Assembly (NCBI RefSeq): GCF_004168285.1
Contig: NZ_SEWF01000004.1
Location: 124,001-188,000 of the forward strand
DNA: 64,000 nucleotides
Reading direction: 5' to 3'
Origin: Emticicia agri
GTDB taxonomy: Bacteria; Bacteroidota; Bacteroidia; Cytophagales; Spirosomataceae
Numbering within the stretch: the stretch's first letter is position 1; each line of letters starts with the position of its first letter. Made by a program: the position numbers and the translations under genes. The notes under the pieces are model-generated. The model did not search any database. It had not been told where the DNA came from and saw only the letters and a list, made by a program, of their open reading frames with translations. This document shows positions 12,037-27,001 of the stretch, one piece after another.

Positions 12037-12073
12037 TTGAATTGAAAATAATGTGCATGAATAGAAACCTGCA

Positions 12074-12081
12074 CAAAAGTA
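12074..12081 (-). promoter_or_regulatory. Candidate -7 element TACTTTTG before the gamma-carbonic anhydrase gene
   Basis: The minus strand reads TACTTTTG, matching TAnnTTTG, 37 bp before the ATG. A matching -33 TTTG is not evident, so support is modest. Confidence 0.35.
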
Positions 12082-12101
12082 AAGAATAATGTCCTGAACT
12101 T

Positions 12102-13103
12102 TTAATGCGGCACAGAGCGTTTTTTAATCATGCCACCTTTGGTATCTTTGATACTGGTCATAATCACAAAGGCATTGGGGTCTATTTTTTCTATCTCTAA
12201 ATTTAGTTTACTTACTTCGAGACGTGTTATAACGGTATAAACTATTTTCATTTCTCCTTCTGTATAGCCTGTCTTGCCATACCCTCTTTCACCTTTATAC
12301 ACGGTTACGCCCCTTCCCATCTCCTCTATAATCATCCTCTTCATTTCAAGGGCTTTGAGTGAAATAATGGTAACGCCTGTATATTCTTCAATCCCTTCAA
12401 TGACAAAATCAACGGTTTTTGAGGCTGAAAGATACGTAAGCATTGAATACAGTGCTGTTTCGATAGACAGTACATAGGCTGCTACCGAGAATATAATCAC
12501 ATTGATTACGAGAATCACATCGCCGATAGTAAGACCCATTCTGCGGCTAAGAGTAATGGCAAGTACCTCTGTTCCGTCAATCACTCCCCCGCCTCTCATG
12601 GCCATTCCAATGCCGAGGCCTAAAAAGAATCCACCGAATACAGAAGTCAGTAATTTGTCGTGCGTAATTTCAGGGTAAGGTATGGTTGCTACTGCTATTG
12701 CTAAAGCCGTAATACCAATGGCAGTTTTAACGGCAAATTCTTTGCCTACTACTTTTAAACCTATAATGATAAAAGGTATATTTACAATGACGAGCATTAA
12801 AGAGAGTGGTACGTCCTGAGTGGCAGTAATAAGAAGTGAGATACCGGTTGCCCCACCGTCTATAAATTCATTGGGCAAGAGAAAGCCGTCCAATCCAAAT
12901 CCGGCAGAAACTACACCAATTGCGATTAAGAAAAAGTCTCTGATAAGTCTTCTGACAGTAACTTTTACTTCCCGTATTTCTTTGGCAATCTGGTATTTGG
13001 AACGGTCTGTATGTTTTTCATCTTCGTCTCTGAGTAGATTTAGTAGTGCATTTAAAATAATTTTGGGTAATCGGAGTAAAACATTTTCTTTTTCTTTTCG
13101 CAT
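12102..13103 (-). CDS. YitT family membrane protein (YitT + DUF2179)
   Basis: A 333-aa protein with a charged N-terminus of about 55 residues, five to six membrane helices (about 57-225; GVVSAGFGLDGFLLPNEFIDGGATGISLL is the conserved first loop, split here by helices) and a soluble C-terminal DUF2179 domain at about 245-325 (GRGVTVYKGERGYGKTGYTEGE). YitT proteins are widespread and of unknown transport function. ATG at 13101-13103. The stop is 65 bp upstream of the carbonic anhydrase start, on the same strand, and the intervening DNA carries a candidate promoter. The family call is secure, the function open. Confidence 0.9.
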   Translation of the reverse strand: MRKEKENVLLRLPKIILNALLNLLRDEDEKHTDRSKYQIAKEIREVKVTVRRLIRDFFLIAIGVVSAGFGLDGFLLPNEFIDGGATGISLLITATQDVPLSLMLVIVNIPFIIIGLKVVGKEFAVKTAIGITALAIAVATIPYPEITHDKLLTSVFGGFFLGLGIGMAMRGGGVIDGTEVLAITLSRRMGLTIGDVILVINVIIFSVAAYVLSIETALYSMLTYLSASKTVDFVIEGIEEYTGVTIISLKALEMKRMIIEEMGRGVTVYKGERGYGKTGYTEGEMKIVYTVITRLEVSKLNLEIEKIDPNAFVIMTSIKDTKGGMIKKRSVPH

Positions 13104-13246
13104 AAGTTCTATCTTTGGTGGGTAAAAGCGAAGTTAATCATTTTCAGGGAATTTTGCTACAGCCACAGAATTAATAATTCCTTAAAAAAACAGCCTATAC
13201 GTATATTTTTATCTCTATAAAATAGCTTAATTTGACCAAAAAACCT

Positions 13247-14011
13247 ATGAATCGCCTGTTAAAATTGTGTTGTTTTGTAGCACTTTCAGGTGCTGTTTTC
13301 ATTATTTTTATCTCTGCCTATCCTAAGCCACAGTTTAAAGCGTTAGTGGTAGCCTCCCGTGCCAAAGACCATCTGAAGATGATTGCTGCCGCCAGGCCTT
13401 TTTTTGAAAAAATGGCTTCAGAAAATAACTTCGACCTTGAATTTACCGACGATACCAGTCTGGTAAATGAAGCCAATCTGAAACAGTACAAAGTGTTTAT
13501 ACAGTTGCATCTGGCACCTTTTGATATGTCGGCTGTACAACAGGCGGCCTTACAACAGTATATAGAGAATGGCGGTGGCTGGGTGGGTATTCATGCCGCA
13601 GGACTCACCGGAGATATGTTTAAATCGCCCAAACGAGTCTATTGGCAATGGTTCGAAGATTTTATGGGGGGTATTGCTTACTCGCCTCATCCTAAATTTC
13701 AGAAAGGCACTTTTGTGATAGAAGACACTAAACATCCGGCTACGAGACACTTACCCAGGCGAATAGAGGTAACGGACGAATGGTATGAATTTAACAAAAG
13801 TCCGAGAGGTAATGTAAGGGTATTGGCCACGGCTGATGAATCGACTTATACCCAGAATAAACCTATGGGCGACCACCCGATAATCTGGTGTAATGAAAAG
13901 TATCCACGTACTATTTACATCGGTATCGGGCATGATGCTTCACTCTGCGATAATAAAGATTATACATTATTAGTGCGTAATGCGGTTGTATGGGCTGGGG
14001 CTAAAAAATAA
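13247..14011 (+). CDS. ThuA-domain secreted protein, first of tandem pair
   Basis: A 254-aa protein, starting at the ATG at 13247 (MNRLLKLCC) rather than the TTG at 13232. A hydrophobic N-terminal segment (about 7-25) acts as signal peptide or anchor, followed by a ThuA-like (class I glutamine-amidotransferase-like) fold: FKALVVASRAKDH, FIQLHLAPF, GGGWVGIHAAG near 115, DHPIIWCNEKYPRTIYIGIGHD near 205. The usual amidotransferase Cys is absent, as in ThuA proteins, where the activity is unknown beyond links to trehalose and other sugar use. It is followed 6 bp later by a paralogue. The family is certain, the role unknown. Confidence 0.88.
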   Translation: MNRLLKLCCFVALSGAVFIIFISAYPKPQFKALVVASRAKDHLKMIAAARPFFEKMASENNFDLEFTDDTSLVNEANLKQYKVFIQLHLAPFDMSAVQQAALQQYIENGGGWVGIHAAGLTGDMFKSPKRVYWQWFEDFMGGIAYSPHPKFQKGTFVIEDTKHPATRHLPRRIEVTDEWYEFNKSPRGNVRVLATADESTYTQNKPMGDHPIIWCNEKYPRTIYIGIGHDASLCDNKDYTLLVRNAVVWAGAKK

Positions 14012-14017
14012 AATTCA

Positions 14018-14767
14018 ATGAAAAATTTACTTCTATCTTACTCTTTCGTTTGTTTTTGCCTTGCTACCCATGCCCAAACCAAAATTAAAGTTTTGGCGTT
14101 GGCGGAAAATGGTGGGCATCATATTCAGTATTCTACACGTGCAAAGGTCTGGCTTAACCAGTTAGCGGCTGATAGCAGTTTTGCCATTGACTATATTCAG
14201 AACACCGATGCGATTGATGAAGCGTATCTCAATCAGTATCAACTTTTTATCCAGTTAGACTACCCACCTTATGGCTGGAAAGAGAAAGCGGCACAGGCAT
14301 TTATTAAATATATTGAGCAAGGGAAAGGTGGCTGGATTGGCTTTCATCATGCTACCTTGTTAGGCGAATTTGATGGTTTCCCGATGTGGCAATGGTTCGC
14401 CGATTTTATGGGGAGCATTCGTTATACCAATTACATTGCTACTTTTGTAGCCGGAAAAGTGAGTATTGAAGACCAACAACACCCGGTTATGAAAGGAGTA
14501 CCGACATCCTTTCTAATTAATAAAGAGGAATGGTACACCTATAACAAAAGCCCCAGACCTAATGTACGTGTGCTGGCAAGTGTAGATGAAAACTCTTATA
14601 CGCCTGATACCCAAATAAAAATGGGCGACCATCCGGTGGTGTGGACAAACGAAAAAGTAAAAGCACGGAATGTGTATATATTTATGGGACATTCTCCTGA
14701 GTTATTTGCCAATGAAGCCTACAAAACCCTGTTCAGAAATGCCATTTTCTGGGCAGCAGGTAAATGA
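14018..14767 (+). CDS. ThuA-domain secreted protein, second of tandem pair
   Basis: A 249-aa protein with signal peptide (MKNLLLSYSFVCFCLATHA) and the ThuA fold: IKVLALAENGGHHIQYS, LFIQLDYPPYGW, GGWIGFHHATLLGEF near 100, KMGDHPVVWTNEKVKARNVYIFMGHSPE near 205. It resembles the preceding gene throughout and the two are 6 bp apart, so they are a tandem duplication in one transcript. The next gene, the NtrC-type regulator of the Kdp locus, starts 18 bp later and may be on the same mRNA. Substrate and function are unknown. Confidence 0.88.
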   Translation: MKNLLLSYSFVCFCLATHAQTKIKVLALAENGGHHIQYSTRAKVWLNQLAADSSFAIDYIQNTDAIDEAYLNQYQLFIQLDYPPYGWKEKAAQAFIKYIEQGKGGWIGFHHATLLGEFDGFPMWQWFADFMGSIRYTNYIATFVAGKVSIEDQQHPVMKGVPTSFLINKEEWYTYNKSPRPNVRVLASVDENSYTPDTQIKMGDHPVVWTNEKVKARNVYIFMGHSPELFANEAYKTLFRNAIFWAAGK

Positions 14768-14785
14768 AACGATAGTGAATCAAGC

Positions 14786-16123
14786 ATGAAAACAATACTC
14801 ATTATAGATGATGAAGAGAAACTCAGAAACCTGCTGGCTCGTATTATAGAGTCAGAAGGTTTTGAAGTGATAGAGGCCGGAGATTGCAGGTCTGGCTTGA
14901 AGAAGTTAGAGCAGTTTGCAATTGATGTGGTACTTTCTGATGTAAAACTACCTGATGGCAATGGGGTAGATTTATTGCCTAAAATCAAAGCGGCTCACCC
15001 ATTGGTAGAGGTAATTTTGCTGACGGCTTACGGAAATATCAGTGATGGAGTTCAGGCCATGAAAAACGGGGCGTTTGATTATATCGTAAAAGGCGATGAT
15101 AATGAAAAGATTATCCCCCTACTCCATCGGGCTATTGAAAAAGTACAATTACAAACAAAAGTAAGAGACCTTGAAAAACGGGTTGGTGAAAAATTTTCTT
15201 TCGATGCCATTATCGGCAAATCAAAACCTATTCAGCAAGCCATAGATTTAGCTAAAAAAGTAGCACCTATTGATACAACTGTTTTGCTGACAGGTGAAAC
15301 CGGAACAGGGAAAGAGGTATTTGCTCAGGGTATTCATCAGGCAAGTTCAAGAGCCGGAAAAAGTTTTGTAACTCTCAATTGTAGCACTTTCAGTAAAGAT
15401 ATACTTGAAAGTGAATTATTCGGGCATAAACAGGGTGCTTTTACCGGAGCCATAAAAGATAAAAAAGGACTGATAGAAGAAGCCAACGGAGGCACTTTGC
15501 TGTTAGATGAAATCGGAGAAATGCCACTGGAATTACAAGCCAAATTGTTGCGGGTATTAGAAACGAGTGAGTTTATCAAATTAGGCGATACCAAACCTAC
15601 CAAATCAGATTTCAGATTAATAGCTGCTACCAACCGGGATTTAAAACACGAGTATGAAGCCAATCATTTTCGGTCTGATTTATATTTTCGATTAAGTGTG
15701 TTTGAGATTCACCTGCCGCCTTTACGGGAAAGAGTAAAAGATATTGAATTACTGGCTCGTCATTTTATGCAACAGTTTTCGGCAAAGACCAATAAACGTG
15801 TTGAAAAAATTGAAGACGAATGTCTGGAAAAATTAGAAAGCTATGAATGGGTAGGCAATATCCGTGAGTTAAAAAATATCATCGAAAGAGCGATTATTCT
15901 GGCTGATACCAACACTTTAACTGCTGACTTACTCCCAGTCGATATTCAGCAACCACGCCAACCAAATAAAGGCACACTCTCTGCCTTTTCTATGGCAAGC
16001 GTAGAAAAACTGCATATACAGAAAGTACTCAACTACACCAAAGGCAACAAAGCCGAAACTGCGAGATTGTTAGAAATTGGAATTGCTACCTTGTATAGGA
16101 AGATTGAGGAGTATGGGTTGTAA
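14786..16123 (+). CDS. NtrC-family sigma-54 response regulator of the Kdp locus
   Basis: A 445-aa protein. The receiver domain (1-120) has acidic D8/D9, phospho-acceptor D52 (VVLSDVKLPDG), T80 and K102. The AAA+ sigma-54 activator domain spans about 140-370, with Walker A GETGTGKE (170-177), the sigma-54-contact loop GAFTGA (217-222), Walker B GGTLLLDEIGEM near 240 and RSDLYFRLSVFEI near 297. The C-terminal Fis-type helix-turn-helix spans about 405-445 (GNKAETARLLEIGIATLYRKI). It activates sigma-54 RNA polymerase. A sigma-54-like promoter sits 286 bp after its stop, ahead of the kdp genes, and a histidine kinase ends the locus. It therefore probably takes the place of the OmpR-type KdpE. Domain identity is certain; the target is inferred from position. 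Confidence 0.93.
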   Translation: MKTILIIDDEEKLRNLLARIIESEGFEVIEAGDCRSGLKKLEQFAIDVVLSDVKLPDGNGVDLLPKIKAAHPLVEVILLTAYGNISDGVQAMKNGAFDYIVKGDDNEKIIPLLHRAIEKVQLQTKVRDLEKRVGEKFSFDAIIGKSKPIQQAIDLAKKVAPIDTTVLLTGETGTGKEVFAQGIHQASSRAGKSFVTLNCSTFSKDILESELFGHKQGAFTGAIKDKKGLIEEANGGTLLLDEIGEMPLELQAKLLRVLETSEFIKLGDTKPTKSDFRLIAATNRDLKHEYEANHFRSDLYFRLSVFEIHLPPLRERVKDIELLARHFMQQFSAKTNKRVEKIEDECLEKLESYEWVGNIRELKNIIERAIILADTNTLTADLLPVDIQQPRQPNKGTLSAFSMASVEKLHIQKVLNYTKGNKAETARLLEIGIATLYRKIEEYGL

Positions 16124-16152
16124 TAAATCACCCTCAATAATAAATTATTTAA

Positions 16153-16266
16153 TTTACTACGGAGTATCACAAAGCGACCGACGACTGGTTAGGCACTGAG
16201 TTTCACAGAGACTATTAAAAAACTCCGTGAAACTCAGTGCCATACTCTGTGTCACACCGTGGTAAA
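16153..16266. repeat. CCACGGAGT-family palindromic repeat, copy A
   Basis: Outer arms AATTTACTACGGAGTAT and its inverse end GTCACACCGTGGTAAATT enclose a nearly perfect inner stem, GGCACTGAGTTTCACAGAG against CTCCGTGAAACTCAGTGCC. Related copies occur at 20981, 22182 and 35855. It lies between the response-regulator stop and its terminator. Confidence 0.75.
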
Positions 16267-16311
16267 TTCTTTTTGCTAAAACCGCAAATTCCCCCTACTC
16301 CATTTTGAGAA

Positions 16312-16340
16312 AAGCTTATCATTTTGATAGGCTTTTTTAT
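16312..16340 (+). terminator. Intrinsic terminator after the response-regulator gene
   Basis: The stem AAGCTTATCA / TGATAGGCTT (one G-T pair) with loop TTT is followed by TTTTT. It separates the regulator transcript from the sigma-54-like promoter of the kdp genes. Confidence 0.7.
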
Positions 16341-16407
16341 GACTCTTTTCTGGCATCTCAACCACATTCTCCTCATAATCAATTACTTATAAATCTGCTT
16401 CTCTAAA

Positions 16408-16423
16408 CGGCACAAACATTGGC
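16408..16423 (+). promoter_or_regulatory. Sigma-54 (-24/-12) promoter candidate for kdp
   Basis: The sequence CGGCACAAACATTGGC carries the -24 GGCAC and a -12 TTGG with the 10-nt spacing between the GG dinucleotide and position -13 typical of TGGCAC-N5-TTGC. It departs from consensus at the first T and at the final C (TTGG, with GC one base later). The first small ORF starts 32 bp downstream, and an NtrC-type activator is the neighbouring upstream gene. Confidence 0.6.
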
Positions 16424-16454
16424 ATATAGCAATCAGAACTAAATTTTAAAAACG

Positions 16455-16538
16455 ATGGTAACAGTCATTTTAATTCTTCTTGGTGTAGTCCTGTTTGGAA
16501 TATGCTATCAATCCATTCACTTTTTTGACAAAATATAA
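16455..16538 (+). CDS. 27-residue membrane peptide ahead of KdpF
   Basis: An ATG-started ORF encoding a single predicted membrane helix (VTVILILLGVVLFGICYQS) followed by a short basic/aromatic tail, IHFFDKI. It lies directly downstream of the sigma-54-like promoter and 4 bp before kdpF. Its length and hydrophobicity mimic KdpF, but its sequence differs from the adjacent, more typical KdpF. It could be an extra accessory subunit of the KdpFABC complex, a leader peptide, or a chance ORF. Recognition rests on position and composition only. Confidence 0.5.
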   Translation: MVTVILILLGVVLFGICYQSIHFFDKI

Positions 16539-16542
16539 ACCC

Positions 16543-16620
16543 ATGACAGCCTTACTCATTTTATCGATTCTCGTTTTCGGATACCTCGTGTATGTATTGC
16601 TTAAACCTGAAAAATTCTAA
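16543..16620 (+). CDS. kdpF: KdpF, small subunit of the K+-transporting ATPase
   Basis: A 25-residue peptide, one membrane helix then the hallmark ending YVLLKPEKF: KdpF proteins typically end in a LL-x-PE-[KR]-F-like motif. It begins at the ATG at 16543 and ends 5 bp before kdpA. In E. coli KdpF is a single-helix peptide that stabilises the KdpFABC complex in the inner membrane. Size, motif and position agree. Confidence 0.88.
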   Translation: MTALLILSILVFGYLVYVLLKPEKF

Positions 16621-16625
16621 ATCTT

Positions 16626-18353
16626 ATGAACACTGAAATATCAGGCATAATTGCCTTATTTGTGGCTACGGTACTGTTAGCCATCCCTTTCGGCAAATAC
16701 ATAGCCAAGGTTTACGCAGGCGAAAAAACTCTTTTAGACCCTGTTTTCAATCCTGTAGAAAAGCTCTTTTATCGCATCAGTGGTATTGATGCTACGCAGG
16801 AAATGAACTGGAAACAACATTTGACTGCTATGCTTGGCATCAACTTTATCTGGTTCTTTCTAAGTATGTTCATTCTGATGAATCAGGGTTGGTTGCCCCT
16901 GAACCCTGATGGCAACCCAAGTATGTCGCCTGATTTAGCTTTTAATACAGCTATCTCTTTTATAGTCAATTGTAACCTGCAACACTATTCAGGTGAAACT
17001 GGGGCCTCTTATCTTACCCAGTTAGTGGGTTTGATGTATCTGCACTTTGTTTCTGCCGCAACAGGTATGGCCGCTTGTGCCATTGTTTTCAATGCCCTGC
17101 GTGAGCGTCAGGCTGAAAAATTAGGTAATTTTTATAATTATTTCCTAAAAAGCTGCACCCGTATTCTTTTACCTGTTTCAATGGTTGTAGCCTCATTGTT
17201 GGTCTTTAATGGTTCTCCGATGACATTCGAGGGTAAAGACACCATCACTACTTTACAAGGAGATTCAGTTCAGGTATCCAGAGGTCCGGCTGCGGCTTTT
17301 ATAGCCATTAAACACTTGGGTACCAATGGTGGTGGTTTCTTTGGGGTCAACTCTGCTCACCCATTTGAAAACCCCAGCTACTTTACTAATGGAATAGAAA
17401 TGATTACACAGATGCTTATTCCTTTTGCGTTCATTTTTGCCCTGGGTTATTACCTGAACAGAAAAAGACTTGCCTGGACAATTTTTGGCGTAATGACCGT
17501 AGGTTTCTTGTCGCTTACTATACCAACAGTTATTGCTGAAATGAACGGTAGTCCGGCAATAGCCCATTTAGGAGTTGTGCAACCTAACGGAAGCATGGAA
17601 GGCAAAGAAGCCCGCTTTGGTACGGCTGCCTCCGGTTACTGGAGCATTGCTACTACGGTTATCTCTACCGGTTCGGTTAATAGTATGCACGATAGCAGTA
17701 TGCCGCTTTCAGGCGCCATGCAATTATTAGCCATGATGATTAATGCCTTTTACGGAGGTTGTGGCGTAGGTATCTTGAACTATTTCATTTTCATCGTTCT
17801 GGCCGTATTTATATCCGGACTCATGGTAGGTCGTACACCTGAGTTTTTAGGCAAGAAAGTAGAGGCAAGAGAGGTAAAAATTGCCGCTATCATAGCTATC
17901 CTTCACCCATTTTTGATTTTAGTTGGTGCAGCTTTGTCTTCTTATTTAGCTGCCAGAGATGCCCCAATGGGTTGGTGGTTTAATGGAAACGCCACAGGCT
18001 GGCTGAATAATCCGGGGTATCATGGCTTCTCTGAAATGCTTTACGAATATACTTCAAGTGCTGCCAATAATGGCAGTGGTTTTGAGGGTCTTGGCGACAA
18101 TAACCCATTCTGGAACATTACTACAGGTATTGTGCTTTTATTGAGCCGCTATTTACCAATCATTGGCCCGGTAGCTATTGCAGGCTTGCTGGCAAGTAAA
18201 AAGTATATCCCTGAAAGTGCAGGAACCCTGAAAACTGATACTTCAACCTTTGCCATTATGACCTTTGCCGTAATAGCCATTATTGCTGCCTTATCATTTT
18301 TCCCTGCGCTGGCTTTAGGCCCGTTAGCAGAACATTTTAAGCTATTTAAATAA
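16626..18353 (+). CDS. kdpA: KdpA, K+-channel-like subunit of the KdpFABC ATPase
   Basis: A 575-aa inner-membrane protein with about ten helices, full length for the family. Selectivity-filter-like loops are visible: [13 protein letters not shown] near residue 116, [19 protein letters not shown] near 233, [15 protein letters not shown] near 375 and [16 protein letters not shown] near 482. These correspond to the four pore repeats of the SKT-superfamily K+ channel. KdpA selects K+ and passes it to KdpB. It is second in the kdpFABC order, 5 bp after kdpF and 8 bp before kdpB. Identification is certain. Confidence 0.98.
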
Positions 18354-18361
18354 GAATTTCC

Positions 18362-20404
18362 ATGACCAGAAATAATCAAATTCCGCTATTTGACAGTCAA
18401 TTGGTAAAAGAAGCTATCGGCCAGTCTTTTATCAAACTCAATCCCCGATTAATGTTTCGTAACCCGGTTATGTTTACAGTAGAAATCGGAACCGTTATCA
18501 TGTTGATTGTTTGTATTGCTATCTTTTCAGGTGCTACCAATCAAGGTAGTCTTGCTTACAATGTTATTGTCTTTTTAATTCTGTTGATTACATTGCTCTT
18601 TGCCAACTTTGCCGAAGCTCTTGCCGAAGCCCGTGGCAAAGCACAAGCCAATAGTTTACGCAAAACCCGTGAAGAAACACCTGCCAAAGTGATTCAGACT
18701 GTCGGAGAAATGTATCTGAATGAGATAAAGATGGTTCCCTCATCTTTATTAAGAAAAGGAGATGTATTTGTGTGCGAACCCGGAGATATTATCCCGACTG
18801 ATGGAGAAATTATTGAAGGCTTGGCAACGATTGACGAAAGTGCCATTACAGGTGAGTCTGCTCCGGTGATTCGTGAGGCAGGTGGTGATAAAAGTAGTGT
18901 AACCGGTGGTACAAAAGTATTGTCTGATAAAATCAAGGTAATTGTAACTACCCAACCCGGTGAAAGCTTTTTAGATAAAATGATTGCGCTGGTTGAAGGA
19001 GCAAGCCGTCAGAAAACACCTAACGAAATTGCATTAACAATCCTGTTAGCTGCCTTTACCATCATCTTTATCATTGTGTGTGTAACGCTGAAACCTTTTG
19101 CAGATTATGCGCAAACACCTATCACCATTGCTGCTTTTATCTCACTTTTTGTGTGTTTGATACCTACTACCATTGGTGGGCTGCTGTCTGCCATCGGTAT
19201 TGCGGGTATGGACAGAGCTTTACGTGCCAACGTGATTACCAAATCAGGTAAAGCCGTAGAAACTGCCGGAGACATTGATGTGCTGCTTTTAGATAAAACC
19301 GGAACCATAACCATCGGTAACCGCAAAGCCACTCACTTTTATCCAACCAAAGGTGTAAACGAACAGGATTTTATCAAAGCCGCAGTATTGAGTTCGATGG
19401 CTGATGAAACGCCTGAAGGGAAATCAATCATTGAACTGGCTGATGTAAATCCATCAAGCTATAAAATCAGCAAGCCTGTTTTTATCAAATTCACTGCTGA
19501 AACCCGTAGTTCGGGTGTTGATTTTGAAAATATAAGAATCCGCAAAGGAGCTTATGATGCCATTAAAAAATTAGTTGAAAAAGCCGGAAATGTTTTCCCG
19601 GCTGAAACAGGCGAAAGAGTAAAGAGTATTTCAAGCAATGGGGGTACTCCACTGGTAGTTTCAGAAAATGAAAAAGTATTGGGCGTAATTGAGTTACAGG
19701 ATATTATCAAGACAGGGATTCAGGAACGGTTTGAACGTTTGCGCAAAATGGGTGTAAAAACCGTGATGGTAACAGGAGACAACCCACTAACCGCTAAATA
19801 CATTGCCGAAAAAGCCGGAGTTGATGATTTTATTGCCGAAGCCAAACCCGAAGACAAAATGCAGTATATCCGCAAAGAACAACAATCAGGTAAATTAGTG
19901 GCCATGATGGGAGACGGCACAAATGATGCCCCTGCCCTTGCCCAAGCCGATGTGGGAGTAGCTATGAATAGTGGAACACAAGCGGCTAAAGAAGCTGGTA
20001 ACATGGTTGACCTTGACAATGACCCAACCAAGCTGATTGAGATTGTAGAAATTGGCAAGCAATTATTAATGACTCGTGGAACCTTGACCACTTTTTCTAT
20101 CGCCAACGACGTAGCCAAATATTTTGCCATTGTTCCGGCCTTGTTTATTGCTACCATACCTGCCTTACAGGGTTTAAATATCATGAATCTGCATAGCCCT
20201 GAAAGTGCCATTCTTTCGGCGGTCATTTTCAATGCAATTATTATCCCGTTACTCATTCCACTGGCCTTGAAAGGTGTGGCGTATAAACCTATTGGTGCAA
20301 GCGCCATTCTTCGCCGCAACTTGTTAATTTATGGTCTGGGCGGTATTGTTGTGCCATTCATTGGTATTAAAATCATCGACCTTGCCGTATCACTTTTTAT
20401 CTAA
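18362..20404 (+). CDS. kdpB: KdpB, catalytic P-type ATPase subunit
   Basis: A 680-aa P-type ATPase. The phosphorylated aspartate is D311 in [10 protein letters not shown]; the dephosphorylation motif is TGES ([10 protein letters not shown] near 160) in the actuator domain; the hinge is [18 protein letters not shown] near 515. The Kdp-specific [26 protein letters not shown] precedes the phosphorylation site, reported here only as a family marker in two parts ([25 protein letters not shown]). It hydrolyses ATP to drive K+ uptake through KdpA. It is 8 bp after kdpA and followed 7 bp later by kdpC. Identification is certain. Confidence 0.98.
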
Positions 20405-20411
20405 TACAATT

Positions 20412-20972
20412 ATGAAAACATTATTTTCAGCTATCAGACTTACCTTGGTAAGTATGGTACTATTCGCAGTCATCTACCCTCTTCTCATTACAGGTATTGC
20501 CCAACTGGCACCTAATCAGGGAAAAGGAGAAACCATAGAAATAAATGGCAAAACCGTTGGTTATCAGAAAATAGGACAGTCTTTTACAGCCGATAAATAC
20601 TTCTGGAGCCGTCCGTCGGCTGCCGGATATAACGCAGCAAGTTCAGCCGGAAGCAATAAGGGAGCCACTAATCCGGATTATCTGGCAACTGTGCAGGCAA
20701 GAATTGATACTTTTCTGGTTCATAATCCGAAAGTGGTCAAATCACAAATTCCTTCAGAAATGGTTACGGCTTCAGGCAGTGGTTTAGACCCTGATATAAC
20801 TCCCACATCGGCCAGAATTCAGGTAAAACGCATTGCAGATACAAGAAAAATTTCAGAAGATAAAATCTTAGCTTTGATTGACTCACATACACAAAAACCA
20901 TTGTTAGGCTTATTCGGTACAGAAACCATTAATGTACTGGAATTGAATGTGGGTTTAGATGAGTTGAAGTAA
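20412..20972 (+). CDS. kdpC: KdpC subunit of the K+-transporting ATPase
   Basis: A 186-aa protein, starting at the ATG at 20412 (MKTLFSAIRLTLVSMV), which fits the 7-bp gap after kdpB; an open frame beginning inside kdpB is not the true start. It has one N-terminal helix (about 8-30), then the periplasmic KdpC domain: FTADKYFWSRPSAAGYN near 60, SGSGLDPDITPTSARIQVKR near 120 and PLLGLFGTETINVLELN near the end. KdpC assists ion loading in the complex. Identification is certain. Confidence 0.97.
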   Translation: MKTLFSAIRLTLVSMVLFAVIYPLLITGIAQLAPNQGKGETIEINGKTVGYQKIGQSFTADKYFWSRPSAAGYNAASSAGSNKGATNPDYLATVQARIDTFLVHNPKVVKSQIPSEMVTASGSGLDPDITPTSARIQVKRIADTRKISEDKILALIDSHTQKPLLGLFGTETINVLELNVGLDELK

Positions 20973-20980
20973 GTTAATTT

Positions 20981-21083
20981 TTAACCACGGAGTAACACGG
21001 AGTTAAGGCACGGACTTGCACTAAGTTAAATTAAATATCTCTGTGAAACTCTGTGCCTACCTCCAGGATACTCAGTGGTTAAA
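20981..21083. repeat. CCACGGAGT-family palindromic repeat, copy B
   Basis: It begins TTTAACCACGGAGTAACACGG and ends with the inverse, ATACTCAGTGGTTAAA. Inner words GGCACGG and TCTGTGCC are partly inverted. It fills the gap between kdpC and the porin gene. Confidence 0.75.
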
Positions 21084-21110
21084 TTCAAAAAATATTTAAG
21101 TACAACAAAA

Positions 21111-22169
21111 ATGAAAAAACTACTTTTAACGGCATTTGTGTTCATGATTTTGAAAGCAAATGCTCAGGAAACACCAAACCCACTGACATTTTCGGGTTAT
21201 GTAGAAACGTATTATAGTTACGATTTCAGTAATCCCGCAAATCACGAAAAATCGTTTTTTTTGTATAATCACAATCGACACAATGAGTTGAATCTGAATT
21301 TAGGGTTATTAAAAGCAAACTATACTACCGATAAAATGCGAGCCAATTTAGGGATTATGTTGGGTACTTATGCCCAGTACAATCTGGCTGCCGAACAGGG
21401 GCTTTTAAAGAATTTGTATGAAGCCAATATCGGGGTAAAAATTTCAAGAAAAAGTAATCTTTGGATTGATGCAGGCGTGATGCCGTCTCATATAGGTTTC
21501 GAAAGTGCCATCGGTAAAGACTCATGGAATCTAACAAGGAGTTTATTAGCCGAAAACTCTCCCTACTATGAATCAGGTGTAAGAGTTTCTTATACATCAG
21601 CCAATGAAAAATGGTATCTGGCCGGATTGGTTCTTAATGGCTGGCAACGTATTCAGCGAGTACCGGGAAACCAGACACCTGCGTTTGGTACACAGTTGAC
21701 CTACAAACCCAATTCGAACGTAACCCTTAACTGGAGTACCTATGTAGGCAACGAGCAACCTGACAGTGCAAGTAAATGGAGATATTTTAATAATCTTTAT
21801 AGCCAGTTTCAATTGAATGAAAAATTTGGATTGACCGCAGGTTTTGATTTTGGCTATGAACAAAAATCTAATAAAAGTACTGCCTATAATGTATGGCTGA
21901 CACCCATTTTAATTGCCCGCTATGCAGCTACCGATAAATTCAGAATTGCCGCAAGAGCAGAATATTATCAGGATACAAACGGGGTGATTATTGCCACCGG
22001 AACACCCTATGGTTTTCAGACATTTGGCTATTCTGTGAATCTTGATTATGCCATTATCGACAATTTATTATGGCGTGCAGAAGGCAGAATTTTAGACAGC
22101 AAAGACAAAATATTTGCCGATAAAAACCAGAATTTCTATGTAACCAGTGTTTTTTGTTTTAGTTTTTAA
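21111..22169 (+). CDS. Outer-membrane porin of the Kdp locus
   Basis: A 352-aa protein, started at the ATG at 21111 (MKKLLLTAFVFMILKANAQ, a signal peptide) rather than the GTG at 21075 inside the repeat. The mature part alternates as a beta-barrel (FSGYVETYYSYDF, FFLYNHNRHNELNLNLG, VRVSYTSANEKWYLAGLVLNGW) and ends in an aromatic C-terminal strand, FYVTSVFCFSF, as expected for an outer-membrane barrel. It follows kdpC in the same orientation and precedes the KdpD-type gene. It may admit K+ or other small solutes to the periplasm when Kdp is induced. The barrel is clear; specificity is inferred only from context. Confidence 0.82.
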   Translation: MKKLLLTAFVFMILKANAQETPNPLTFSGYVETYYSYDFSNPANHEKSFFLYNHNRHNELNLNLGLLKANYTTDKMRANLGIMLGTYAQYNLAAEQGLLKNLYEANIGVKISRKSNLWIDAGVMPSHIGFESAIGKDSWNLTRSLLAENSPYYESGVRVSYTSANEKWYLAGLVLNGWQRIQRVPGNQTPAFGTQLTYKPNSNVTLNWSTYVGNEQPDSASKWRYFNNLYSQFQLNEKFGLTAGFDFGYEQKSNKSTAYNVWLTPILIARYAATDKFRIAARAEYYQDTNGVIIATGTPYGFQTFGYSVNLDYAIIDNLLWRAEGRILDSKDKIFADKNQNFYVTSVFCFSF

Positions 22170-22181
22170 TTTCAACAATTG

Positions 22182-22280
22182 AATTAACCACGGAGTAACA
22201 CTGAGTTAAGGCACGGAGTAGCACTGTTTTTTATCCTCCGTGTAACTTCGTGCCTAACTCTGTGAAACACCGGGGTAAAA
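22182..22280. repeat. CCACGGAGT-family palindromic repeat, copy C
   Basis: It begins AATTAACCACGGAGTAACACTG and ends CTCTGTGAAACACCGGGGTAAA. Inner words GGCACGGAG and CTTCGTGCC are inverted. It fills the gap between the porin gene and the KdpD-type gene. Confidence 0.75.
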
Positions 22281-22297
22281 TAATCAACAGTCTTACA

Positions 22298-23434
22298 ATG
22301 ATGTCAACACCAGATAACAAAGAAGAAAACGTACAGCATTTTTTAGATTTAATCAAAAAATCGAGACAAGGAAAGTTTAAGGTCTATATTGGTATGAGTG
22401 CCGGTGTAGGTAAAACTTTTCGTATGTTGCAGGAAGCACACGCTTTGTTACGGAATGGTATTGATGTAAAAATAGGCTATATTGAAACACATTTTCGTAA
22501 AGAAACGCATGATTTATTGGAAGGTCTGCCGATTATTCCTCGTCGGAAGATTTTTTACCGAGGTAAAGAATTAGAAGAATTAGATGTACAGGCAGTCATT
22601 AACCTTCGTCCGGAGGTGGTCATTATTGATGAACTGGCGCATACCAACATTGAGGGAAGCAAAAACGAAAAACGATGGCAAGATGTATTAGAGATTCTCG
22701 AAGCAGGGATTAATATTATCAGTGCGGTAAATATCCAGCACATCGAAAGTCTGAATGAAGAAGTAAAAGAGATTACGGGCATTGAAGTAAAAGAAAGAAT
22801 CCCCGACAGTATTATAGCCATTGCCGATGAAGTAGTAAATATTGACCTTACGGCCGATGAGTTGATTACCCGTTTGAAAGAAGGCAAAATTTACACAGCC
22901 GACAAAATACAGATGGCACTCAATAACTTTTTTAAATCGGAACAGATATTGCAGTTAAGAGAGTTGGCATTGAAAGAAGTAGCCAGTCAGGTAGAAAGAA
23001 AAGTAGAAACAGAAATTCCGAGAACTACGGCTATCAGGCACGAGAAATTTCTGGCTTGCATCAGTAGTAATGAACAAACGGCAAAGACAGTCATCAGAAA
23101 AACGGCACGGCTGGCCAGTTATTACAATAGCAAATGGTATGTACTTTATGTACAGACTCCTAAAGAAAGTCCGGATAAAATTGCTTTAGATAAACAAAGA
23201 CATCTGATTAATAATTTTAAATTAGCCACTCAATCAGGCGCAGAAATTATCAGGGTTGAAAGCGGTAATATATCAAAAAGTATTATGGAAGTAGCCGAGC
23301 AAAGACAAATTACTACAGTTTGCATTGGCAAGCCACACCTGAACCTTTTGAATGTGATTCTATCGACCAATATTTTTAATGAGCTACTGAAGAAACTATC
23401 GTTTGCAGACATTGATGTGGTGATATTGTCGTAA
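22298..23434 (+). CDS. kdpD: Stand-alone KdpD N-terminal protein (KdpD + USP domains, no kinase)
   Basis: 378 aa, ATG at 22298; an upstream GTG lies within the repeat. The KdpD domain (about 15-225) has Walker A GMSAGVGKT (32-40) and Walker B VVIIDELAHTN (107-117). A universal-stress-protein domain (about 250-378, FLACISSNEQTAKTVIRK to IDVVILS) ends the protein. Classical KdpD (about 890 aa) continues with four membrane helices, GAF, HisKA and HATPase domains; all are absent and a stop follows directly. Kinase function is probably supplied by the separate histidine kinase 109 bp downstream. In classical KdpD this N-terminal part binds ATP and tunes kinase/phosphatase balance. Here it would be a soluble regulator in trans. 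Confidence 0.9.
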   Translation: MMSTPDNKEENVQHFLDLIKKSRQGKFKVYIGMSAGVGKTFRMLQEAHALLRNGIDVKIGYIETHFRKETHDLLEGLPIIPRRKIFYRGKELEELDVQAVINLRPEVVIIDELAHTNIEGSKNEKRWQDVLEILEAGINIISAVNIQHIESLNEEVKEITGIEVKERIPDSIIAIADEVVNIDLTADELITRLKEGKIYTADKIQMALNNFFKSEQILQLRELALKEVASQVERKVETEIPRTTAIRHEKFLACISSNEQTAKTVIRKTARLASYYNSKWYVLYVQTPKESPDKIALDKQRHLINNFKLATQSGAEIIRVESGNISKSIMEVAEQRQITTVCIGKPHLNLLNVILSTNIFNELLKKLSFADIDVVILS

Positions 23435-23532
23435 GCCCCTAACCGCGCGGCGGACCGCCCCTGAAGGGGAATAATTAAAAAAAACTGCCTTCACTCCCCA
23501 TCTCCAACAGGAGAGGGAGCCGGGGGGTGAGG
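23435..23532. repeat. GC-rich hairpin repeat related to the MITE interior
   Basis: The gap between the KdpD-type gene and the kinase gene contains GCGCGGCGGACCGCCCC and ATCTCCAACAGGAGAGGGAGCC, words shared with the interior of the MITE copies at 3551 and 40945, but it lacks their GTCTCAAAAG ends. It is best read as a decayed or internally deleted relative. Confidence 0.5.
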
Positions 23533-23543
23533 TAAAAAATACA

Positions 23544-25274
23544 ATGAAAATAAGAACTAAATTGACCCTTGGTGTAGGTCTGCTATTTATACTAATCACT
23601 TTGCTGACCTACGTTGGCGCAAAGTCTATTAATGCGTTGAAAAACGATACCGAGAATATATTGGTTGCCAATTACAACACGCTCGAATATGCGCGGAATA
23701 TGTTGATGGCACTTGACGACCTCTCTACAGATAAAGGGGCTATACGCAAAATAGAAGAAAATCTTGCTAAACAACAGGCTAATATCACCGAAATCGGAGA
23801 GAAAGAAGCTACTGAACAACTTCGCAAACACCTGGCACAGTTGAAGATGAATAATTTTGACAACACAATTCACCTACTGATACGCAAAGATATTGCCGAA
23901 ATTATGCGCTTGAATATGGAGGCGATTCAAAGAAAAAGCGATGTAGCCAAACAGACAGCGGCTTCTTCAACCATCTGGATTGCTATTACAGGTACACTCT
24001 GTTTTGTGATAGCATTCACCCTACTAATTAACCTGCCAAGCAATATTGCCAGCCCAATTAAAAAACTGACTGAAAGTATCAAACAGATTGCCGCCAATGA
24101 TTACTCGCAAAGGGTCTATTTTCAGGACCATAGCGAGTACGGCGAGTTGGCCAGGTCGTTTAATACGATGGCAGAAAAACTGGAAGAATACAATAATAGC
24201 AACCTGTCTCAATTACTCTTCGAGAAAAAGCGTATCGAAACGCTTATCAATAATATGCACGACCCGGTAATCGGGCTTGATGAAAACAAGAAAATACTGT
24301 TTGCCAATGATGAAGCGCTGAAAGTAACCGGGCTGAAAGCCGAACAACTGATAGGACAACAGGCACAAGATGTATCAGTAATAAACGACCTGATGCGCTC
24401 GCTCATAAAAGATTTAATAGTGCCAGAAAAGAATAATTCGGATAAAAAGCAACCGATTAAGATTTTTGCCAACAGTAAAGAAAGTTATTTTGAAAAAGAA
24501 CTTATAGATATTGCCATTGTACCCACAGGCGAAAAACAAAAAAAGCATATCGGACACGTGATAGTGCTGAAAAACATTACACCATTTAAAGAATTAGATT
24601 TTGCCAAAACCAATTTCATTGCTACTATCTCGCACGAACTGAAAACACCTATTTCATCCATCAAAATGAGTACGCAATTGCTGGAAAAACAAAAAACAGG
24701 CACCATTAACGAAGAACAAAAACAATTGATTGACAGTATAAAAGACGATAGCCAGCGATTATTAAAAATAACCAGTGAATTACTGAACCTATCGCAGGTG
24801 GAAACCGGAAATATTCAACTGAATATCCAGAAAAGCACCCCCTATCAGATTCTGAAATATGCGCAGGAAGCCGTGAAAGTACAGGCCGAACAAAAACAAA
24901 TTCAACTGCTGACTGATGTAGAAGAGAACCTGCCCGATGTAAAGGCAGATACAGAAAAAACGGCATGGGTACTCATCAACTTTCTCACAAATGCCATTCA
25001 TTACTCGCCCGAACTAAGTAAAATTACCATCAGCATTAAGCAGGAAGAACAATTGGTCAGTTTTTCGGTAACTGATCAGGGCAAGGGCATCGAAAAACGG
25101 TACAAAGACAAAATTTTCGACAAGTATTTTCAGGTGCCGGGCAGTATCAAATCAGGTACAGGTTTAGGCCTTGCCATCAGCAAAGAATTTATAGAGGCTC
25201 AAAACGGCACTATCGGTGTTGAAAGCGAAATCGGCATGGGCAGTAGTTTCTTTTTCAAATTAGGCGTAGGATAA
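23544..25274 (+). CDS. HAMP/PAS sensor histidine kinase of the Kdp locus
   Basis: A 576-aa membrane kinase. First helix about 8-28; periplasmic four-helix-type sensor region about 30-145; second helix about 147-168 (IWIAITGTLCFVIAFTLLI); HAMP about 169-225; PAS about 230-340 (NNMHDPVIGLDENKKILFAN); HisKA with H364 in ATISHELKTPIS; HATPase with N-box NFLTNAIHYSP, DQGKGI and GTGLGLAIS. It ends the Kdp cluster, and no other unpaired kinase lies near the NtrC-type regulator. It is the likely partner of that regulator and of the truncated KdpD protein. Domain content is certain; the pairing is inferred. Confidence 0.9.
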   Translation: MKIRTKLTLGVGLLFILITLLTYVGAKSINALKNDTENILVANYNTLEYARNMLMALDDLSTDKGAIRKIEENLAKQQANITEIGEKEATEQLRKHLAQLKMNNFDNTIHLLIRKDIAEIMRLNMEAIQRKSDVAKQTAASSTIWIAITGTLCFVIAFTLLINLPSNIASPIKKLTESIKQIAANDYSQRVYFQDHSEYGELARSFNTMAEKLEEYNNSNLSQLLFEKKRIETLINNMHDPVIGLDENKKILFANDEALKVTGLKAEQLIGQQAQDVSVINDLMRSLIKDLIVPEKNNSDKKQPIKIFANSKESYFEKELIDIAIVPTGEKQKKHIGHVIVLKNITPFKELDFAKTNFIATISHELKTPISSIKMSTQLLEKQKTGTINEEQKQLIDSIKDDSQRLLKITSELLNLSQVETGNIQLNIQKSTPYQILKYAQEAVKVQAEQKQIQLLTDVEENLPDVKADTEKTAWVLINFLTNAIHYSPELSKITISIKQEEQLVSFSVTDQGKGIEKRYKDKIFDKYFQVPGSIKSGTGLGLAISKEFIEAQNGTIGVESEIGMGSSFFFKLGVG

Positions 25275-25298
25275 AGCCTGATTTTGGTTACAGGCTTT
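25273..25298 (+). terminator. Terminator hairpin after the Kdp kinase
   Basis: AAAGCCTG (25273-25280) pairs with CAGGCTTT (25291-25298) around a 10-nt loop and is followed by a pyrimidine-rich tail. The stem overlaps the kinase stop codon. It may serve both convergent genes. Confidence 0.6.
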
Positions 25299-25347
25299 AT
25301 CTTCTTCCGCTATTCTTGTTTATATAAATAGGTGCTATTGATAACTC

Positions 25348-25974
25348 TTAAGGGCATACTTTACCGTCTATCACAAAGAGTGATTCCTCACAATAGCTGT
25401 ACTGCATATTAAAAGTAATGCTTAATGTTAGGGTTACAGCTACTCTTGCTGTAACCGGAAGCGGGCTCCCTTTAATATCAATAATTAAAGTAGAACCACG
25501 ATACAATCTTTTAATGGCGTTAGCTAATGTATTATTAATTTTGTCAAGCCCATCGTTCATAAATGAAAAATTAGCGCCTGCCACGGTAACTTCATTAATT
25601 TCTATATTTGATTCTCTCAATAAAGGGACTTTTGGCGAAACACTGACTTCATTATTAGCAACCAACGATGAAATATTCATGCTTAGGGCTGTATTGCCCG
25701 TATTTCTTTTCAGTTTTATCTCTGCTGATTGAACTACCAATTCTTTAATGGTATAATCTCGCTTGTTGAGCTGACCATCTAAACCCTCTGTTAGTGTTCT
25801 GACTAACTCATCCATACTCAAATAGGAAGTCTGATTGATGCTCCCGGTGGTATTAATAGTATAAACCAGGTCTTTAGTATGGCTAATGCTCTTTTCTACA
25901 TAAATATATGGCACACGACCACAGGAAATGGCAAAAACTGAAAAAAGAACCGCAAGTAATAATAGTTTTTTCAT
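25348..25974 (-). CDS. Lipoprotein of unknown function
   Basis: A 208-aa protein with a lipoprotein signal peptide (MKKLLLLAVLFSVFAISC; Cys18 as lipidation site). The mature part is beta-rich, with two similar halves of alternating hydrophobic strands (SISHTKDLVYTINTTGSI, IKELVVQSAEIKLKR, IEINEVTVAGANFSF, LIIDIKGSPLPVTARVAVTLT). I do not recognise the family. Its start codon overlaps the stop of the upstream outer-membrane gene by 4 bp, so they are translationally coupled. It may be an envelope partner of that protein. Confidence 0.75.
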   Translation of the reverse strand: MKKLLLLAVLFSVFAISCGRVPYIYVEKSISHTKDLVYTINTTGSINQTSYLSMDELVRTLTEGLDGQLNKRDYTIKELVVQSAEIKLKRNTGNTALSMNISSLVANNEVSVSPKVPLLRESNIEINEVTVAGANFSFMNDGLDKINNTLANAIKRLYRGSTLIIDIKGSPLPVTARVAVTLTLSITFNMQYSYCEESLFVIDGKVCP

Positions 25975-26876
25975 GGTTTTGTCTGTTTTGTTTTTGATTG
26001 AAATCTGAATCCTATATTACCAAAGGCAATGAGTGGTTTCATGCCACTTGCCCCTAAAGTAAGCGAGAAAAAACCTAACTGAATATGTGTACCAATACCC
26101 AATAGCACCGGAAACTGGTTTTTCAGGTTTACAGTCTGGGCTTTATCAGTATTATCTTCTTTGTAGGTATAAGAGACATCGAAAGTGCCCATCTGATACC
26201 CTCCAAAGGCAAAAAAGCCGATATTTTTATTGGTAACACCTGCTTGCAGGTATGCGTAATTGCTTTGTAGTTGAATATACCTGCCAATATCTGCTTTGTT
26301 GAACTGATACCCAATATTAATCACATAAGGGCTATCTTTCTTCAGAAAATACTGGCTGACAGAGTGCCTCAGCCCTACTCCTATCTGATTGAATTTACCA
26401 AAATCGGTATCGGTTTTACCCAAAGTCATAAACCGAAGCGAAATATCAGTACCATAAAAACCACCAATACTTAATTGTGGGGTTGCCCAACTCAGACGTG
26501 TGATATTGTACCCTCCTGAAAAAGCATAACTGGTACCATTGACCCCTGCTACCTTTACGTTGGAAGCATTACCCACAATGGTTGGCACTTCTACGGTAGT
26601 TTTTGGGTCAAATGAGTCGGGCGTGTCTGCCATAAATGTTTTCTGAGATTTGTCAGGAAATATATGTGCCGTATGAAGGCTCAGGCGAACATTGAATTTG
26701 TCTCCAATTCTGATGGAAGGTTGAATACCAGTATTCAATCCAGTGATGGTCATATCGGCCAACGGTTGCAGATACCCTTGCGCATTGGTACCTATGTAGG
26801 CATCAAAAAAACTGTTTACCTGCTGACTATAAGCTGCATGGCCAAGCAGGCAAAGAAGCATAAATCTGTATTTCAT
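25971..26876 (-). CDS. Outer-membrane beta-barrel-type protein of unknown function
   Basis: 301 aa from the ATG at 26874-26876 (MKYRFMLLCLLGHAAYSQQ, signal peptide); a start seven codons upstream would spoil the signal. The mature sequence is strand-rich and glycine/aromatic-rich (FSGGYNITRLSW, LSIGGFYGTDISLRFMTLG, NIGFFAFGGYQMGTFDVSYTY) and ends in strands IAFGNIGFRFQ before a short polar tail. This fits a small outer-membrane barrel of the OmpW/DUF6588-like kind. It overlaps the downstream lipoprotein gene by 4 bp. The function is not known. Confidence 0.72.
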   Translation of the reverse strand: MKYRFMLLCLLGHAAYSQQVNSFFDAYIGTNAQGYLQPLADMTITGLNTGIQPSIRIGDKFNVRLSLHTAHIFPDKSQKTFMADTPDSFDPKTTVEVPTIVGNASNVKVAGVNGTSYAFSGGYNITRLSWATPQLSIGGFYGTDISLRFMTLGKTDTDFGKFNQIGVGLRHSVSQYFLKKDSPYVINIGYQFNKADIGRYIQLQSNYAYLQAGVTNKNIGFFAFGGYQMGTFDVSYTYKEDNTDKAQTVNLKNQFPVLLGIGTHIQLGFFSLTLGASGMKPLIAFGNIGFRFQSKTKQTKP

Positions 26877-26924
26877 AATAAGCAATGTTTTCAACAAAAA
26901 TATCAGGATAAAAAAGCAGGGGCA

Positions 26925-26947
26925 ATCCCCTTTGGAGGGGATTTTTT
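26925..26947. terminator. Terminator-like hairpin in the divergent gap
   Basis: ATCCCC (26925-26930) pairs with GGGGAT (26937-26942), followed by T6 on the plus strand. No plus-strand gene ends here. It sits 3 bp before the -7 box of the following kinase gene, so it could insulate that promoter. Confidence 0.45.
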
Positions 26948-26949
26948 AG

Positions 26950-26957
26950 TATATTTG
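26950..26957 (+). promoter_or_regulatory. Bacteroidota -7 element TATATTTG before the 7TMR-DISM kinase
   Basis: Exact TAnnTTTG match, 44 bp before the ATG at 27002. A TTTG lies 15 bp upstream inside the hairpin loop, somewhat closer than the usual -33 spacing. Confidence 0.5.
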
Positions 26958-27001
26958 ACAAGTGTATGTCTCCATTGCCAAATACCTATTATACCATATA
27001 A

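Follow-up and report, generated by a model that had tools for sequence, protein, structure and literature searches.

The window analyzed here is a 64,000-nucleotide stretch of the Emticicia agri genome (contig NZ_SEWF01000004.1, positions 124,001 to 188,000, forward strand), and the system in question is a potassium-uptake locus built around the kdp genes (Table 1). Pump genes kdpFABC are preceded by a gene for an NtrC-type response regulator and followed by genes for an outer-membrane porin, a short KdpD protein, and a membrane histidine kinase. A first-pass annotation, made from the letters of the DNA alone, had named these genes, and profile matches confirm all of them, including the porin as a member of the operon. 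The frame for a 27-amino-acid peptide just 5' of kdpF is not in that annotation. The start of kdpC was set at 20412; the open reading frame starts at 20331, which is too early, as KdpC profiles align from residue 25-33. The regulator has the complete architecture of an NtrC-type sigma-54 activator. In 80 regulators, four of the six positions of the GAFTGA loop are identical throughout (80/80), and the other two are Ala or Ser (73/7) and Gly or Ser (78/2). The closest named KdpD to that of the window is from Emticicia sp. C21 (94% identity). Directly upstream of the regulator gene are two tandem ThuA (trehalose utilization) genes (window positions 13232-14767).

Table 1. Genes and other features of the kdp locus, with positions in the Emticicia agri window.
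Feature	Position	Strand	Remarks
NtrC-type response regulator	14786..16123	+	REC, sigma-54 AAA+ with GAFTGA loop, Fis-type helix-turn-helix; PF00072 (Response_reg) 91.5 bits, PF00158 (Sigma54_activat) 229 bits, PF02954 (HTH_8) 45.9 bits
Terminator-like hairpin into T run	16308..16338	+	3' of regulator gene; fold -14.4 kcal/mol
Weak candidate upstream activator site	16339..16356	+	ATGACTCTTTTCTGGCAT; by eye
Sigma-54-like promoter, -24/-12 type	16409..16426	+	GGCACAAACATTGGCATA; 1 base over consensus
Conserved hydrophobic peptide, 27 amino acids (aa), probably membrane	16455..16538	+	Directly 5' of kdpF
kdpF	16543..16620	+	TIGR02115 33.7 bits (cut-off 26.9), PF09604 35.8 bits
kdpA	16626..18353	+	PF03814 764 bits
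kdpB	18362..20404	+	TIGR01497 1029 bits; inhibitory serine site TGES (Ser166)
kdpC	20412..20972	+	PF02669 238 bits
Outer-membrane beta-barrel porin, BBP2 family	21108..22169	+	PF07642 356 bits, above cut-off
Short KdpD (KdpD and Usp domains)	22298..23434	+	PF02702 303 bits, PF00582 27.6 bits
Membrane histidine kinase	23544..25274	+	Transmembrane segment, periplasmic four-helix part, transmembrane segment, HAMP, PAS, HisKA, HATPase

Bacteroidota are named among the phyla that have mainly short KdpD (PMC11018627). Among 296 Bacteroidota genomes surveyed, 89 have a KdpD above the Pfam cut-off: 38 have a short form (374-430 aa), 34 have a middle form (542-656 aa, 33 of them within one family), and 17 have a full-length protein. 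The short form is a common one in the phylum, and "KdpD fragment," the term used for it in the first-pass annotation, is misleading. We collected 117 further loci with short KdpD, of which 37 came from the 296-genome sample and 80 were named loci found with the window KdpD as query, which biases the set toward close relatives. Because the kinase gene directly follows short KdpD in 116 of these other loci (the remaining one is at a contig edge), the gene order is not due to chance. In 80 loci, kdpA has the regulator gene upstream of it in the same orientation; of the other 37, two have it elsewhere in the locus, 18 do not have it in the locus, and 17 run into a contig edge. A gene for a BBP2 porin lies 5' of KdpD in 85/117 loci, was not found in 26, and is affected by a contig edge in six. 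Fifteen of those 26 have no frame of at least 150 aa between KdpC and KdpD, 10 have such a frame (some of the products are beta-barrel-like by eye and others are not), and one has no upstream KdpC. This arrangement is widespread in Bacteroidota. The first-pass annotation had described the locus as rewired into a different circuit for potassium control; the different circuit stands, but it is not a local rewiring.

At high potassium, the KdpD domain, an atypical serine kinase, stops the pump by phosphorylating the TGES serine of KdpB (PMC11018627). Short KdpD/Usp forms keep this serine-kinase function, and the one from Deinococcus geothermalis responds to cyclic di-AMP (c-di-AMP) (PMC11018627). 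The window KdpD has the KdpD and Usp domains only and lacks a kinase core by Pfam. Published catalytic positions are Walker A (G-X5-GKT), the Walker B Asp-Glu, and an adenine-binding Trp/Arg pair (E. coli residues 36-38, 109-110, and 39/190); they were located by motif, with residue numbers shifted by a constant 18, and not by alignment to E. coli KdpD. Lys55 of Walker A, Asp127 and Glu128 of Walker B, and Arg208 are conserved in 118/118 short KdpD proteins, and Walker A Thr56 is present in 104 and replaced by Ser in 14. The target serine site TGES is present in all 106 KdpB proteins longer than 600 aa from short-KdpD loci. Because the serine-kinase residues and the KdpB site are both kept, short KdpD is most likely a stand-alone serine kinase that acts as a post-translational brake on existing pumps, and not the front half of the histidine kinase. 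The E. agri genome has one diadenylate cyclase (DAC) gene (126 bits), and by eye a stretch of the Usp domain reads R-X3-R-X8-W, as reported for E. coli. A scan of window positions 12000-27000 with Rfam at gathering scores gave no match, so no c-di-AMP (ydaO) riboswitch was seen there. The window KdpD scores 364 bits against NCBIfam model NF038185 (KdpD-like non-kinase potassium sensor), which has a curated cut-off of 550; it is related to that family and falls below the cut-off.

Short KdpD could also be a degenerate remnant of the full-length protein, which does occur in the phylum (17 of the 89 KdpD-positive genomes). This is highly improbable given the invariance of the Walker A Lys, the Walker B Asp-Glu, Arg208, and the KdpB serine site; moreover, the kdp cluster of Deinococcus radiodurans encodes a protein of equal size (365 aa). 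A split of KdpD by an assembly error or frameshift was rejected, as the short form is common to 118 loci and the kinase is not KdpD-like.

The membrane kinase contains HAMP, PAS, HisKA, and HATPase domains only (Pfam). It lacks the membrane and GAF domains of KdpD, and its closest solved fold is WalK; because of these two features, the kinase is not KdpD-derived. The first-pass annotation had viewed the short KdpD as the ATP- and messenger-sensing half of a split sensor kinase, which would bind the HAMP/PAS kinase and steer it. Their adjacency in 116 of the 117 loci agrees with such a partnership, and the N-terminal ATP site of E. coli KdpD is implicated in control of the phosphatase activity of that protein (PMC11018627). 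The makeup of the kinase, however, argues against a split sensor, as does retention of both the serine-kinase site in short KdpD and its target in KdpB. In addition, loci that lack kdp can have a member of this kinase family next to the regulator, in some cases with Kup or Ktr as a neighbor. We regard a split sensor as distinctly unlikely and keep the serine-kinase brake as the preferred role of short KdpD.

Between the membrane spans of the kinase, six residues (N43, N80, E83, G85, E86, and N124) are invariant in 38/38 aligned kinases, an alignment that takes in Kdp-, Kup-, and Ktr-associated members. An AlphaFold2 model (mean predicted local distance difference test 80, predicted template modeling score 0.35) has helices at 3-61, 66-79, 86-102, and 107-183. 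In this model, N80-G85 lie between helices two and three, and E86 opens helix three. Judging from helix positions and lengths, the invariant residues would be at about one level of the bundle and form a plausible cation site. Periplasmic sensing is not universal in the kinase family, because the kinase of a plasmid operon from Bacteroides finegoldii (L272) aligns essentially from residue 125 on.

A full-length KdpD/KdpE pair elsewhere in the genome was the competing controller considered in the first-pass annotation. The E. agri genome, which is 99.9% complete, has one KdpD (open frame of 409 aa) and no full-length KdpD, and comparison with Bacteroidota KdpE candidates found no KdpE-like protein in it. 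The best match of its 12 OmpR-type regulators to these candidates is 154 bits, compared to 196 bits or more among 10 of the 11 candidates themselves; the eleventh (L093) matched none of the others. Orthologs of the NtrC-type regulator were called at E <=1e-115, a threshold set beyond the best paralog in the window's genome (7e-92). In the 296-genome sample they are present in 38/38 genomes with short KdpD and in 11/258 others. In genus g13 the ortholog is present in 12/12 genomes with KdpD and in 0/5 without, a figure that partly restates presence or absence of the operon and carries little weight for regulation. Nine genomes were reached through ten loci (eight without the regulator, one incomplete, and one carrying it), and all nine have the ortholog at 60-78% identity, compared to 37-41% for the runner-up NtrC proteins of similar length. 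In some of the nine, the regulator may sit just outside the collected stretch.

Regulator genes that are unlinked to kdp provide information on its partner. Eighteen such loci were available, namely 12 from genomes without short KdpD, two second copies in kdp genomes, and four from a further sample. In 11 of them, an ortholog of the kinase adjoins the regulator or is next but one to it (L215, with a porin between). These 11 kinases score 251-449 bits; the alignment begins at residue 139 in L205 and at residue 1-28 in the other 10, which align through to the end. For comparison, the second-best kinase of the E. agri genome reaches 118 bits in an alignment limited to the kinase core, and the best kinase match around the 20 best-scoring paralogous NtrC genes is 105 bits. 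Because they sit together in 11 of the 18 kdp-unlinked loci, the best explanation is that the kinase and the NtrC-type regulator form a cognate pair. Of eight loci examined in the middle-size KdpD group, seven have a kinase that can be aligned over nearly full length (214-251 bits) and six have an NtrC-type gene, the latter scoring 283-321 bits, no better than ordinary paralogs. This group may use a diverged version of the pair.

Output through the NtrC-type regulator, and probably through sigma-54, had been proposed in the first-pass annotation, and it is supported by this pairing, by the co-occurrence of the regulator with short KdpD, and by a promoter signal. The promoter set consisted of 69 non-redundant upstream regions, drawn from 85 usable ones among 105 loci. 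TTGGCA is present in 35/69 (2.1 expected; one on the opposite strand). About 10 bases before it begins another element, GG-N-A-[CT]. Sites of the form GG-N10/11-GC that score 5 or more are found in 36/69 regions, compared to four on the opposite strand and to a mean of 7.0 and a maximum of 14 in 200 shuffles. TTGGCA is located 15-120 nucleotides (nt) ahead of the first gene in 33 loci, and in 20 of these a box starts at a distance of 35-37 nt. This strand-specific signal looks like a sigma-54 promoter of the -24/-12 type, with the spacing one base off in the window. Eleven Flavobacterium and Emticicia loci have, as judged by eye, another TTGGCA 68-69 nt upstream of the first; in the window it reads CTGGCA and is 69 nt away. 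A sigma-70 promoter in 16100-16650 was rejected (three scan matches, 2.4 expected by chance).

Genome-wide, the strict promoter pattern has 12 matches, versus two for the reversed pattern. Ten of the 12 are inside frames of at least 80 aa, one is in a CRISPR array, and only the kdp site precedes a gene; the pattern is not a genome-wide promoter class. A CRISPR-like array with a repeat of about 30 nt and a 65-nt period extends over a 3-kb stretch of contig C24 (L226, about position 3212). Sigma-54 is present in 293/296 Bacteroidota genomes and so is uninformative as a correlate. The window's genome has two sigma-54 genes, one on contig C49 (L032) and one on contig C30 (about 23124-25081; L033, L188) beside an NtrC-type regulator. 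The latter may be a second, dedicated sigma-54. The regulator gene is followed by a strong hairpin that leads into a T run (z -5.2, 0/200 shuffles as good), so that this gene and the pump operon are probably separate transcripts. The hairpin stretch is conserved in three Emticicia relatives; a simple terminator scan did not report it.

The pair also occurs with other potassium transporters. A potassium importer is near the regulator in 7/18 kdp-unlinked loci, from three bacterial families: Kup in L207 and L208, and TrkH with TrkA in L209, L210, L211, L213, and L251. Importers were checked with Pfam in L207, L209, L210, L211, and L213 and identified via BLAST in L208 and L251. None of 20 paralogous NtrC neighborhoods holds Kdp, Kup, or TrkH/TrkA (Fisher p 0.0025 for 7/18 versus 0/20, kinship ignored). 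One locus (L250) encodes kdpABC, KdpD, the kinase, the regulator, and TrkH on one strand. Kup is present in 11 and TrkH in two of the 137 loci of the first set, and in L076, L161, and L177 Kup is between the regulator and kdpF. As judged from gene neighborhoods, the pair is a candidate for one that follows potassium transporters, and not Kdp as such. We give even odds to a broader proposal, in which Bacteroidota have a widespread, previously unnamed potassium-starvation system: the sigma-54 pair would recruit the importer of each lineage (Kdp, Kup, or Ktr) and sense the cation through periplasmic N43, N80, E83, E86, and N124, and the 27-aa peptide would be a pump subunit or sensor partner. A 299-aa protein, CorA-like by eye, is encoded between the regulator and kdpF in L148, L168, and L171.

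Taken together, the locus is proposed to be a two-layer control unit for potassium uptake, which combines a sigma-54 transcription switch with a serine-kinase brake on pump activity, and we put the probability of this reading at roughly 0.68. In the first layer, the membrane kinase would sense potassium shortage, probably via its periplasmic four-helix part, and would phosphorylate the NtrC-type regulator. The regulator would then activate the sigma-54-like promoter, from which the small peptide, kdpFABC, the porin, short KdpD, and the kinase itself would be expressed, presumably as one transcript. In the second layer, short KdpD would phosphorylate Ser166 of KdpB when potassium is ample and stop pumps that have already been made; c-di-AMP is the likely signal to it. 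The porin would pass potassium across the outer membrane.

Several observations weigh against parts of this reading. Absence of the regulator from some loci, the phospho-site class of the kinase, and the promoter spacing also speak for an alternative in which the regulator is a bystander or controls other genes. In that alternative, kdp would be expressed from a housekeeping promoter or through an unseen regulator, and the kinase would have a different response regulator as its partner. The 18 collected loci that lack the regulator include Dyadobacter and Chryseobacterium. The kinase phospho-site reads HELKTP, which we take to be typical of kinases serving OmpR-type regulators and unusual for a partner of NtrC. 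The GG-N11-GC spacing of the window is, as we understand the sigma-54 consensus, one base too long. At a score of at least 5, the form found in the window and Flavobacterium (GG-N11-GC) is present in 26/69 regions (other strand 3) and the canonical GG-N10-GC in only 14/69 (other strand 1), and 33/69 have no qualifying site. In the Kup/Ktr loci, the two-box match was found in 1/16 upstream regions (trkH of L210, canonical), and a bare TGG-N10-GC in three of the other 15. No potassium importer is nearby in 11 of the 18 kdp-unlinked loci, and for two of these (L206 and L212) the contig is short or ends there; the positives come from three families only and the 20 controls include mutual relatives, so that neither set is independent. 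For the porin and the brake, BBP2 was not found in 26 loci, and the place of E. coli KdpD Trp39 is taken by Tyr (67) or Phe (51) across the 118 short KdpD proteins. In an alignment by eye, the c-di-AMP motif of Staphylococcus aureus (SXS-X20-FTAXY; PMC4686210) was not seen in the Usp domain.

A bystander regulator is nevertheless unlikely. Its ortholog is present in every genome with short KdpD in the sample and in all nine genomes whose loci lacked it or were incomplete, kinase and regulator stay close together away from kdp, and the promoter signal is strand-specific with a preferred distance to the first gene. The two-layer unit remains our preferred reading.

The 27-aa peptide is encoded upstream of kdpA in 89/105 loci, the window included (67 found by pattern and 22 more by profile above the inclusion threshold). 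Its gene evolves as coding sequence, with a ratio of nonsynonymous to synonymous differences (pN/pS) of 0.23 across 24 disjoint pairs, and it has no match in Pfam or NCBIfam. Forty of the 67 pattern-found peptides end in FFEKI or FFDKI, an ending similar to that required by the search pattern itself. The peptide is a candidate extra subunit of Kdp. Many loci of Flavobacterium and Dyadobacter have a further small gene 5' of the peptide, identified as DUF7674 in the three that were scanned. Several Bacteroidota kdp loci, such as L139, L174, and L159, have a DUF7674 gene upstream of kdpF (93-127 aa in the three scanned). A sequence search of PDB with the porin gave no match.

Two plasmid records, from Bacteroides finegoldii (L272) and Parabacteroides distasonis (L273), have a kdp operon with short KdpD and this kinase family. 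Both operons are divergently oriented beside a trehalose-phosphate synthase gene and a GH15 gene, which suggests an osmotic-stress island. In L272, a protein without a Pfam match occupies the place of BBP2.

Canonical control of kdpFABC is by a two-component system under potassium shortage, which the present system resembles. The canonical system differs in having a single-chain KdpD and the OmpR-type KdpE, neither of which is in the window's genome. A split kdpD in Alicyclobacillus (Schleussinger 2006) is mentioned in PMC11018627. There, as here, the N-terminal part of KdpD is apart from the kinase; in the locus described here, however, the kinase has no KdpD-specific domain.

A closer likeness is to Desulfovibrio vulgaris, where DVU3334 regulates its own operon DVU3334-3339, which encodes kdpFABC and a KdpD split into a potassium-sensor/UspA protein and a kinase protein (PMC3333781). 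Twenty-two of the 29 DNA-binding regulators in that study are NtrC-type, and it reports orthologs only in D. vulgaris Miyazaki and S. fumaroxidans. The Bacteroidota system likewise has a regulator, kdpFABC, and separate UspA-type KdpD and kinase proteins. We take DVU3334 to be NtrC-type as well; the available text of the study does not state its class. Unlike for the Bacteroidota system, that text mentions no porin or link to Kup or Ktr in connection with the D. vulgaris operon. In the available portions of open-licence literature (including PMC4686210, PMC11018627, PMC1183210, PMC10634447, PMC8552747, and PMC3333781), we found no sigma-54/NtrC regulator of kdp in Bacteroidota, and in such literature we found no report of this kinase/regulator pair in the phylum or of one two-component system common to Kdp, Kup, and Ktr.

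Where full-length KdpD and a c-di-AMP riboswitch are both lacking, kdp is controlled by a separate two-component system in a few named species, and otherwise expression is constitutive or its mechanism is unknown (PMC11018627). Split and short KdpD are already known, and a related kdp arrangement has a precedent in Desulfovibrio. Similar to the short KdpD/Usp serine kinase of D. geothermalis (PMC11018627), the window KdpD has KdpD and Usp domains only and is encoded downstream of the pump, the serine-kinase residues and the KdpB serine are conserved, and the genome has a diadenylate cyclase. That article leaves transcription control open for cases in which it identified no separate kinase, and the present analysis goes beyond it in proposing a specific kinase/NtrC pair and a promoter, here for a phylum with mainly short KdpD. 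If the proposal is true, potassium uptake in Bacteroidota is switched on through sigma-54 and switched off by a serine kinase, with separate proteins for the two, and unrelated potassium importers have the on-switch in common. A candidate sensor site in the periplasm and a conserved small protein outside Pfam and NCBIfam are further results of the analysis. Compared to the known systems, what is new is a candidate general sigma-54 system for potassium uptake.

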